Source: Crocinitomicaceae bacterium (lineage in GTDB: Bacteria > Bacteroidota > Bacteroidia > Flavobacteriales_D > Parvicellaceae). From it: a stretch of DNA of 39,990 nt. The stretch's first letter is position 1, and each line of letters starts with the position of its first letter. Positions 1-35,725 of this stretch are shown one piece after another. The stretch is from assembly GCA_002723085.1 (NCBI GenBank), contig PBNK01000046.1, positions 1-39,990 on the forward strand. The letters run 5' to 3'. The position numbers and the translations under genes are program-made. The notes beneath the pieces were generated by a model, which did no database searches, was not told the origin of the DNA, and saw only the letters and a list, made by a program, of their open reading frames with translations.

Positions 1-764
1 TCTACGGTTGGCTTTGGAGTTATGTAATGACTATTTGCATAAACTTTTATTAAATTTAATTCTCTAACTTGATCTCCAGTTAATGGATCAAATTCTTCAA
101 TTTTCTCTAATTTATCTCCAAATAAAGTTAATCGCCATGCCCTATCCTCCAAATGGGATGGAAAAATTTCCAAGTATTCTCCCCTTGCTCTAAAAGTTCC
201 TCTATAAAAATTTTGATCATTTCTTTTGTACTGAAGTGCTACTAATGATTTTATTATTTGCTCTCTGTTATATTCATAATTTTTTTTTAAAGTTAAGGTC
301 ATTTTACTATATGCCTCAACTGAACCTAAGCCATATATACACGATACACTGGCAACAATTAAAACATCATCTCTTTCCAAAAGAGACCTAGTAGCAGAAT
401 GTCTCATTCTATCAATTTGTTCATTTATGGATGCTTCTTTTTCAATATAAGTATCGGATCTAGGAACGTAAGCTTCAGGAGTATAATAATCATAATATGA
501 AACAAAATATTCAACAGCATTATTAGGAAAAAAACTTTTCATCTCTCCATAAAGTTGTGCAGCCAAAGTTTTATTAGGTGCCAAAATAAGAGCAGGCCTA
601 TTTGTAGCTTCAATTATTTTTGCCATTGTAAATGTTTTTCCAGAACCTGTTACACCTAACAAAGTTTGAGCATTAACTCCTTCTTCAAGACCTTTAACAA
701 GCTCATTAATAGCTTCTGGTTGATCCCCAGTTGGACTAAAATCAGATTGTAATTTAAATTTCAC
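1..764 (-). CDS. uvrB: UvrABC excision nuclease subunit B (N-terminal part; cut by window edge)
   Basis: UvrB is the DNA-damage-verifying helicase of nucleotide excision repair: it is loaded by UvrA and recruits UvrC. About 254 N-terminal residues are present; the rest lies beyond position 1. The translation opens [19 protein letters not shown], has the Walker A motif GVTGSGKT at residues 37-44, and shows the damage-probing beta-hairpin [12 protein letters not shown] near residues 90-101. The start is GTG at 764: an in-frame TAA lies four codons upstream and no ATG is available. The gene lies 9 bp downstream of aroE and is the last visible member of a minus-strand operon. Function is certain from conserved motifs; only the C-terminal half cannot be judged. 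Confidence 0.97.
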
Positions 765-33813: not shown

Positions 33814-34074
33814 TTATTTTACTTTTTTGCATTTACATTCTTTACATTCTTCCATTGTTTGAAAAGGCACTACACCTTCGCATCCTCCCCAAGTAAACTG
33901 TTCACATTTTCCTGTTTTGTTATTAAAATAATATTTTGGAATAGCAGCTTTACAAAATCCCGTTTCTGGTTTTAAATTGCATTTATCCTGGCATTCACTA
34001 GACTTCCTAACTGCACAACTATAAGTCAATAATATTATTATAAAGCAAACTGATAGGGTAGTTAATTTTTTCAT
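33814..34074 (-). CDS. Kunitz/BPTI-domain lipoprotein (predicted protease inhibitor)
   Basis: An 86-residue predicted lipoprotein (signal to TYSC, lipid Cys20) whose mature part is one Kunitz domain. Cysteines at 32, 41, 57, 65 and 77 keep the classical spacing C-x8-C-x15-C-x7-C-x11-C; BPTI has x12 in the last interval. The segments YYFNNKTGKCEQFTWGGC and FQTMEEC match BPTI. The sixth cysteine is displaced (Cys80 or Cys82), and an extra Cys28 precedes the domain. The P1 residue after the second domain cysteine is Lys42, predicting inhibition of trypsin-like proteases. It starts immediately after the stop of the 146-residue gene. Confidence 0.85.
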   Translation of the reverse strand: MKKLTTLSVCFIIILLTYSCAVRKSSECQDKCNLKPETGFCKAAIPKYYFNNKTGKCEQFTWGGCEGVVPFQTMEECKECKCKKVK

Positions 34075-34506
34075 TTATACATTTTCTCCTAAAAATAGGA
34101 TTAATTTCTTCTTGTTTATAAATGGTGAAACAGAAAGTTTTTTATTGCAATACCACATAAACTGAAAATTACTTTTGCTAAAATGAACGGTAAGTGTTCC
34201 ATTCTCATATTTTTTAATGACATCAAATTGTGGTTTTTGTGATAACCCATTAATTATATCATCATACAATTCTTTAAATTCTTTTTTTGTGGTAAAAAAT
34301 GAAACTATTTTATTATCATTTAAAACATCTTTAAATTGAATTGTAAATTCAGTTTGGTTTAATAAATAACAAGATGCATAAGTTTTTTTTCCTTTTTTAA
34401 ACTGTCCTATAAATACTGAATCTACATGCTGACATTTTGCATTATTAAAAATTAATATACCTATAATAAGAATACTATATCTTAACGACTTTAGTTGTAA
34501 AAACAT
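34075..34506 (-). CDS. Exported hypothetical protein in the SGNH-Kunitz cluster
   Basis: A protein of about 143 residues with a signal peptide (MFLQLKSLRYSILIIGILIF ... NAKCQ). The mature part is a short alpha/beta protein with no recognised domain (IGQFKKGKKTYASCYLLNQ, KEFKELYDDIINGL, LTVHFSKSNFQFMWYC). Possible ATG starts are 34515, 34509 and 34506, all overlapping the end of the SGNH gene by about 30-40 bp. Its stop directly abuts the Kunitz ATG. Function unknown. Confidence 0.6.
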   Translation of the reverse strand: MFLQLKSLRYSILIIGILIFNNAKCQHVDSVFIGQFKKGKKTYASCYLLNQTEFTIQFKDVLNDNKIVSFFTTKKEFKELYDDIINGLSQKPQFDVIKKYENGTLTVHFSKSNFQFMWYCNKKLSVSPFINKKKLILFLGENV

Positions 34507-35725
34507 CATTTCCAAAATAAGTTTTTAGGTAATATAGTCCACTTTTGAAATTAGAAACATCAATCGAATTCTTATGAGAAATTTTAATTAATTGACCAGA
34601 AAAATCATAAAATTCAATCCTAAAACTTTTATGTGAATCAGGAATATTTATTGTTATTAAATTTGAGAAAGGATTTGGGAAAATGTAAATTCCTTTAGAT
34701 TGCTGTTCGTCTAACTTATTTGAAAATGAGATATTATAAGAATAAGAAACAGTATCTGTTAAACATCCATCATTAGTGTAGATAACCAATTGTATTTGAA
34801 AACTTCCAGCAGAATTATAAGAATGATTTGGATCATTATCCAATGAAGAATTCCCATCTCCAAAAAACCAAACCAAACTATCGTAATTTGAAGATAAATT
34901 GGTAAAAGAAACAGGATTTGAAGTAGTATCAGCAGAAAAATCGGCATTAAAAACATTCCAAGTTGATAAGCTATCTAAAACAGTATTAGAAGCCACTTCT
35001 TGAATCAAATGACCTGTAACTAAATCTATCTGACTAGGAATAAAAGTGGAGCCAATTGGACTTTTTTTAAATATAGTAGCATAAAACGTACACGCTGCTA
35101 AATAACTTCCATAAATACTTGGATGACTTTCATCTGGGTTATACAAATCAGTAATGGAATCTATTTCCATAAAATTTTTCCAAGCTATTCCAACAGGAGA
35201 TACAGTTGCATTGTTTGTAATTCCCATTTCTAAATAGCTCTCTCTTAATCTTTGTTGCATTCCCAAATAGGTGCAAACAGGAGGGTAAGCAGCGCAATTA
35301 TTAGCATCCCCATTTTTCCTTCCCCAGGTCATGTAAAAAACAGGTTCAGAACAACTGCTATTTAACTCAATAGAATTAACCAATTGAGTTGCATATGGAA
35401 ATACATTTGTTGCTACATATGAAGGGGATAAAGATGGTTTTTGACTTTGATCTTGCAATACCACATAATCCCAAGGCTGTTGATTAATCTTAGCAAGAGT
35501 TGTTGCGTTATTTACGTGTCCATAAAAAGAAGCGCCACCAGGTGTGCTACTTTCAGTATTTACTGTATCTCCAAATGATAATGCAATATCAGACAATAAT
35601 TGTGGTAAATTATTGTAATAAGTGTAACTATTCCCAATAAATAAAACATCAATAGATTGAGCTTTTGTTGATAAAAGGAAATATAAATAAAGTAATATAA
35701 TAGCTAGGAACCGCAACCAATACAA
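34475..35725 (-). CDS. T9SS-secreted SGNH/GDSL-like hydrolase with PKD domain
   Basis: A 416-residue secreted enzyme: signal peptide (about 1-23), then an SGNH-hydrolase-like domain with block I IGNSYTYYNN (Ser33), GG at about 63-64 and the block V DESH with Asp198 and His201. A PKD domain follows (about 258-325, WFFGDGNSS), and the last 70 residues are a T9SS type A sorting domain (FPNPFSN ... TKVVKI). No ATG is available; TTG at 35725, directly after an in-frame TGA, or TTG at 35716 must start it, both inside the upstream 56-residue gene. SGNH enzymes are often esterases; the substrate is unknown. Confidence 0.78.
   Translation of the reverse strand: MYWLRFLAIILLYLYFLLSTKAQSIDVLFIGNSYTYYNNLPQLLSDIALSFGDTVNTESSTPGGASFYGHVNNATTLAKINQQPWDYVVLQDQSQKPSLSPSYVATNVFPYATQLVNSIELNSSCSEPVFYMTWGRKNGDANNCAAYPPVCTYLGMQQRLRESYLEMGITNNATVSPVGIAWKNFMEIDSITDLYNPDESHPSIYGSYLAACTFYATIFKKSPIGSTFIPSQIDLVTGHLIQEVASNTVLDSLSTWNVFNADFSADTTSNPVSFTNLSSNYDSLVWFFGDGNSSLDNDPNHSYNSAGSFQIQLVIYTNDGCLTDTVSYSYNISFSNKLDEQQSKGIYIFPNPFSNLITINIPDSHKSFRIEFYDFSGQLIKISHKNSIDVSNFKSGLYYLKTYFGNDVFTTKVVKI

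Follow-up and report, generated by a model that had tools for sequence, protein, structure and literature searches.

Textbooks treat Kunitz inhibitors as animal proteins, and the locus studied here raises the question of whether a short reading frame in a bacterial genome truly encodes one, how far it departs from its animal counterparts and which proteases it could act on. The window, by which we mean the whole stretch of 39,990 nucleotides analysed, from a Crocinitomicaceae bacterium, contains the gene with the following features:

33814..34074, minus strand: gene of the predicted Kunitz lipoprotein, 86 aa (open reading frame; PF00014; place conserved in a same-genus genome)
33838..33981, minus strand: Kunitz domain core, residues 32-79 (PF00014 profile 2-50; AlphaFold2; Foldseek and VIA matches to TFPI, APPI and BPTI)
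33949..33951, minus strand: Lys42, P1 of the reactive-site loop (first residue after C41, which equals BPTI C14)
33991..33993, minus strand: Cys28, additional cysteine upstream, placed at BPTI position 1 by the structural alignment (model 28..82 against 1aap 1..56)
33829..33837, minus strand: Cys80-Lys81-Cys82 tail in place of BPTI Cys55 (sequence and structural register)
34018..34074, minus strand: putative signal peptide, residues 1-19 (K-K, then a hydrophobic stretch; low pLDDT; read by eye)
34015..34017, minus strand: Cys20, predicted lipidated cysteine (lipobox-like L-T-Y-S-C; L-I-S-G-C in the orthologue L017)

A Kunitz domain in a bacterial protein

The reading frame starts with ATG and holds one Pfam domain, Kunitz_BPTI (PF00014), matched over residues 32-79 with an E value of 7.6e-12. 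The profile search had been proposed as a check by the sequence-only reading of this DNA, and its score of 45.7 bits stands against a curated cut-off of 21 bits. This was the single PF00014 match in the whole 2.43-Mb genome, none of 14 control genomes had a match above the cut-off, and NCBIfam offered no family matching the protein. Counted from the sequence, the cysteines run C32-x8-C41-x15-C57-x7-C65-x11-C77, and the intervals of these first five (8, 15, 7 and 11, against 8, 15, 7 and 12 in BPTI) place the loss of one residue in the BPTI 38-51 interval. The GGC, YYFNN and FxxxEEC motifs are all present, so that counting bore out the earlier description of BPTI spacing minus one residue with these motifs retained. 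The cysteines of disulfides 14-38 and 30-51 are all in register (C41, C65, C57 and C77) and invariant in A1.

The predicted structure, which was the second check proposed, also gave a confident Kunitz fold. AlphaFold2, run on an alignment with 66 bacterial sequences, all of which also match PF00014, assigned a pLDDT of 96-97 over residues 31-79 and left the signal region disordered (42-45). VIA-align superposed the model on 1aap, the Kunitz domain of APP, with Z 8.4 and 1.6 Å over 55 residues, and Foldseek returned sixty PDB chains at E <= 0.001; among the matches listed, all are Kunitz domains, and the top structural matches are animal ones. With both profile match and fold obtained, the frame encodes a genuine Kunitz/BPTI protein, as had been claimed. 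It shares with BPTI, TFPI, APPI, SmCI and boophilin (PF00014; MEROPS I2) the fold, five of six cysteines in register, the loop with P1 Lys and P1' Ala, and the GGC motif, at a domain identity of up to about 45%. Unlike these animal domains, it is one residue shorter between Cys38 and Cys51, where the Asn43 region is lost (G-V-V-P-F), it has cysteines at 54 and 56 replacing Cys55 and an extra one at about position 1, and it carries a predicted lipid anchor in a bacterial host.

An established bacterial lineage

Of 395 genomes sampled throughout the phylum, 6 carry a PF00014 gene; the figure is 16 among 100 close relatives and 64 among 399 genomes of the order (16%; 22 of 70 genera), where the genes fall into two bacterial clades. 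Named relatives that carry them include Hymenobacter gummosus, three Alcanivorax/Alloalcanivorax and three Myxococcales-type genomes (the latter two groups being loci L002-L007). The sequence-only reading had presented the family as mainly animal; the window protein is no isolated case among bacteria, given the presence of such genes in 16% of the order's sampled genomes and in the Alcanivorax and Myxococcales relatives. In a core-domain tree built on 48 alignable columns, with seven domains from a PDB search as the animal set, clade A (37 rows, GGC-x-G-x-V-P-F, support 99/96) comprises the window protein and those of Alcanivorax, clade B (32 rows, YSGC...GFET, two residues shorter than BPTI in that region) is supported at 100/99, and the Myxococcales domains fall apart from both. 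The Alcanivorax/Alloalcanivorax proteins share the VPF deletion, the lipobox and the clade with the window protein and have P1 Arg, but keep a single canonical end cysteine. The Myxococcales proteins differ from it further, with animal-like NNF spacing and a multi-domain make-up that includes Kazal-like modules. A deletion and a cysteine pattern of its own mark this widespread, probably lipid-anchored clade as an established bacterial Kunitz lineage.

Another arrangement occurs in the genera of family f3 (L030-L046 and L048-L052), where an N-terminal Kunitz domain is part of proteins of about 230-270 aa of the signal-peptidase-I type, with a conserved C-terminal part and a P1 that is always Glu or Phe; in L032, the one tested, Kunitz was the sole Pfam match.

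An eight-cysteine framework

Beyond Cys20 the mature protein has eight cysteines and thus departs from the classical six-cysteine framework of the Acinetobacter baumannii F6W77 type. Its end reads C77-x2-C80-x-C82, against C51-x3-C55 in BPTI. When residues 28..82 of the model were laid on 1aap 1..56, every model residue was aligned and one target residue skipped, which put C28 at position 1, C80 at 54, Lys81 at 55 and C82 at 56; C32 corresponds to BPTI Cys5. A displaced sixth cysteine plus an extra upstream one had been proposed: the upstream C28 holds, and in place of a single displaced cysteine there are two, C80 and C82. Because Lys81 occupies position 55 between them, the usual 5-55 disulfide cannot form as such. 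Two relatives (L009 and L010) have a single tail cysteine, at the "54" place, which suggests a C32-C80 bond and hence C28-C82; the four end cysteines would then pair in this way, and the fourth disulfide would link the C-terminus of the Kunitz domain to the segment that bears the putative lipid anchor.

The altered cysteine set is, as anticipated, a real trait, and it is conserved within a subfamily. Across 69 bacterial sequences, with the Myxococcales left out, the upstream cysteine scored by eye and the lipobox cysteine omitted, 38 have the upstream and both tail cysteines and 29 have neither extra; the second tail cysteine occurs alone in two (L001 and L069) and the upstream one alone in none. 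The full pattern (upstream Cys plus a C-x2-C-x-C end) is found in both clades and mostly tracks lipid anchoring: members with apparent signal peptidase I export carry six cysteines, and Alcanivorax, L009 and L010 are lipoproteins without the pattern. For a linked gain of the extra cysteines the sign test was not significant, with few independent pairs (2 on supported branches).

Kunitz domains of bacteria are not new to the literature. The one experimental report that the search turned up, a 2024 paper, describes a five-Kunitz protein (KABP1-5) of A. baumannii F6W77 with P1-dependent inhibition of coagulation factors and elastase, calls bacterial Kunitz peptides few and raises their transfer from hosts (PMC11511053). 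According to the same paper, bacterial Kunitz domains with Arg at P1 inhibit trypsin-like enzymes in vitro; in this the basic-P1 domains of KABP1-5 offer a bacterial parallel to the window protein, from which they are set apart, by description, as five canonical six-cysteine domains in a soluble secreted protein (PMC11511053) as against a single eight-cysteine lipoprotein. The lipid-anchored eight-cysteine branch of the Bacteroidota is apparently undescribed: neither a Bacteroidota Kunitz lipoprotein nor the eight-cysteine pattern was found in the literature searched, outside of which lie most subscription journals. It is a natural experiment on how a well-studied model fold tolerates a moved and an added disulfide.

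Probable anchor and location

Read from the sequence, both the signal peptide and the lipobox are believable but not certain. The lipid anchor asserted by the sequence-only reading is probable, with the lipobox-like LTYSC here and LISGC in the orthologue. The residues that follow Cys20, A-V-R-K-S-S-E, have no acidic pair at +3 to +6 and do not fit the published Bacteroidota surface-export signals, which after Cys+1 are of the K-(D/E)2, Q-A-(D/E)2 and SDDDD / SDDFE types, a rule set established in other genera (PMC5080379); the protein may consequently face the periplasm. In a relative (L057:7881-9080), a Kunitz domain, an FBA region and a type IX sorting domain are joined in one bacterial protein, and the sorting domain indicates that some bacterial Kunitz domains at least would be destined for the outside. 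FBA, the F-box associated region, is usually eukaryotic.

The reactive-site loop

Canonical Kunitz inhibitors need Gly12, Cys14, Ala16 as P1', Gly36, Gly37 and Cys38, and all six are kept in the window protein. Lys42 directly follows C41, in agreement with the P1 lysine proposed earlier. This lysine is shared only with the same-genus orthologue L017, and a basic P1 was seen in 6 of 72 sequences; elsewhere the position is Arg, Met, Leu, Glu, Phe, Gln, Ala, Tyr, Asn or Asp. Since P1 varies so widely among relatives, the target is not conserved, and the same clade-wide variation makes the question of the target directly testable.

The clade B lipoproteins (L011, L012, L019-L029 and L063-L081) are mostly without Gly36 and the Gly12 context, and their P1 is mostly Gln, Met, Ala or Leu. 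Judged by these loops, they may be non-inhibitory or directed at other proteases.

A proposed envelope-anchored inhibitor and its candidate targets

On balance, we think that the protein probably inhibits Lys/Arg-specific S1 proteases from an anchored position in the envelope, as a lipoprotein with an extra C28-C82 disulfide that guards envelope and surface proteins. For lipidation, inhibition, target and benefit we infer the following course. After Sec export the protein would be cleaved and lipidated at Cys20, so that its N-terminus would hold the small lipoprotein in the outer membrane, with the loop TGF-C-K-A-A-I of its single Kunitz domain (P1 Lys42, P1' Ala43) directed away from the membrane. 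The loop would enter the catalytic site of an S1 protease of the trypsin fold with a preference for Lys or Arg, and block it by mimicking a substrate that binds tightly and is cut slowly. Of the Kunitz disulfides, the inner two would be C41-C65 and C57-C77, the third (BPTI 5-55) would be rebuilt as C32-C80, and C28-C82, by joining the C-terminus to the anchor segment, would stiffen the tethered domain and make it resistant to digestion. The benefit would be that envelope and surface proteins are spared from Lys/Arg-specific secreted proteases, the closest candidate targets being the lysyl-endopeptidase-like S1 enzymes of the organism itself and of most relatives, and similar enzymes of predators. 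The existence of the widespread clade suggests that bacteria use tethered inhibitors to protect the cell surface against secreted proteases.

The genome offers candidates of this kind:

G000:C6:56880-57614, G000:C22:36053-36439 and G000:C45:13243-13920: lysyl-endopeptidase-like proteases, three in one genome

Two of them, both large and secreted, contain a domain of the Achromobacter protease I / lysyl endopeptidase type (E 3.7e-41 and 8.8e-40) in which the catalytic residues and Asp225 of the S1 pocket are aligned; the copy at C45 is the third. Asp225 is the specificity residue of lysyl endopeptidase. Two of the genome's Lys-C-like proteases also bear SprB or PKD/Ig_7 repeats, a feature of secreted proteins. 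Secreted lysyl-endopeptidase homologues are a plausible candidate target. They occur in 86 of 100 relatives and are near-universal in the order with or without Kunitz genes, and for this reason they make a target available and do not show a link; Kunitz genes were not enriched together with them (15/16 against 71/84, Fisher p = 0.46), and we rejected co-occurrence as proof of self-protection. The idea of a co-secreted enzyme, raised earlier, is not shown by the locus: within the window no protease gene adjoins the Kunitz gene, and the Lys-C-like ones are encoded elsewhere in the genome. Foreign enzymes also stay candidate targets because the Lys-specific protease BspK of the predator Bdellovibrio is inhibited by BPTI (aprotinin; PMC5288813).

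Defence solely against foreign S1 proteases, from predators, competitors, protists or a host, would leave the organism's own enzymes uninvolved and explain patchiness by niche. The patchy distribution of Kunitz genes (64/399 genomes) beside near-universal Lys-C-like proteases would fit this, as would a P1 that differs between lineages, as expected for changing enemies, and the BPTI-sensitive Bdellovibrio protease (PMC5288813). However, no defence or predation genes were seen beside the Kunitz gene, and we regard foreign enzymes as the only targets as somewhat unlikely. Rather doubtful, too, is self-protection or regulation, by which the inhibitor would be tuned to the organism's own three Lys-C-like proteases and spare its own envelope. 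P1 Lys fits their predicted Lys specificity, the SprB or PKD/Ig_7 repeats on two of them are typical of secreted proteins, and in one relative (L055) the Kunitz gene is convergent with a secreted subtilase gene; against these points, the enrichment test was negative, Kunitz and protease genes are unlinked, and relatives with the same proteases have P1 Glu, Phe or Gln, or no Kunitz gene.

The fold might instead be used without inhibition, as a rigid binding module in adhesion, reception or complex assembly, like some animal Kunitz domains. The variable P1, the loss of Gly36 and the Gly12 context in clade B and, in five relatives, the location of the Kunitz gene next to that of an LVIVD beta-propeller lipoprotein would all suit such a use, but in the window protein every loop residue required for inhibition is intact and the Kunitz domain makes up almost the whole mature protein, which renders it improbable here.

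Other inhibitor and lipoprotein genes accompany the Kunitz genes:

L057:9094-9333, L066:5149-5394 and L097 (G000:C42:31810): small Kazal-type inhibitor lipoproteins
L058:6487-7731, L059, L064, L067 and L069:3102-4358: LVIVD-repeat lipoproteins beside Kunitz genes

Kazal (PF00050) domains were found in 57 of 100 relatives, against 16 of 100 for Kunitz. Like the Kunitz proteins, the Bacteroidota Kazal lipoproteins are small and lipid-anchored, carry a serine-protease-inhibitor domain and occur in the same genomes, although their fold is unrelated and they are more widespread. They are encoded in the organism's own genome (L097); two genomes of the family (L057/L015 and L016) have such a gene right next to the Kunitz gene, and in L066 one lies about 2 kb from it; their presence in the same genome and beside Kunitz genes suggests an antiprotease theme. 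Returning to the envelope-anchored inhibitor that we favour, a wider proposal can be made rather tentatively: Kunitz and Kazal lipoproteins could together form a Bacteroidota envelope antiprotease system, with a Kunitz subfamily stapled to its anchor by the fourth disulfide and a P1 retuned by lineage to local secreted S1 proteases, here Lys against Lys-C-type enzymes.

In the five relatives with the LVIVD beta-propeller lipoprotein, whose Kunitz genes represent both clades, its gene is directly upstream of the Kunitz gene, and it is a possible functional partner; in the organism's own genome the search for such a neighbour gave a weak match only.

Gene order and origin

Two genes precede the Kunitz gene on the same strand:

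34075..34515, minus strand: gene next upstream of the Kunitz gene, for an exported 146-aa protein whose function is unknown (order conserved in L054)
34475..35725, minus strand: DUF4886 (SGNH-hydrolase-like) protein with PKD and type IX secretion sorting domains (PF16227, PKD_4, Por_Secre_tail, TIGR04183)

The stop codon of the 146-aa protein gene, which has an alternative in-frame ATG start at 34509 and whose product gave no convincing match in Pfam or NCBIfam, abuts the Kunitz ATG, and the three genes likely form a unit with the DUF4886 gene first; scanning for promoters and terminators added no information on it. In the same-genus genome (L054) the order is DUF4886 protein, 146-aa protein, Kunitz and a FemAB-like gene, together with further flanking genes. 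Comparison of the mature region with the same-genus orthologue gave dN 0.086 and dS 0.458, a ratio of about 0.19 on a small sample, and the gene is under purifying selection. As a single-copy gene that occupies the same place in another species of the genus and is under such selection, it is not contamination, which is also ruled out by the shared gene order and by a GC content of 30%, like that of the whole window.

On 48 columns the tree gave no clear root against the animal domains, and it speaks neither for nor against transfer from a eukaryote. Recent acquisition from an animal, or contamination of the assembly, in place of an established bacterial family would draw on that short alignment and on the mainly animal range of the family, but is very improbable given the gene order and GC just described, the bacterial signal and lipobox, the strong support (99/96) for a bacterial clade marked by a one-residue deletion of its own and the type IX secretion and other bacterial genes that the contig bears around the locus. 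Viral carriage was discarded, as the single IMG/VR match was a chance KYYFNN in a DNA methylase. Among the relatives, one Kunitz lipoprotein gene (L013, G146:C12) looks frameshifted, with its N-terminal and C-terminal halves in different frames.
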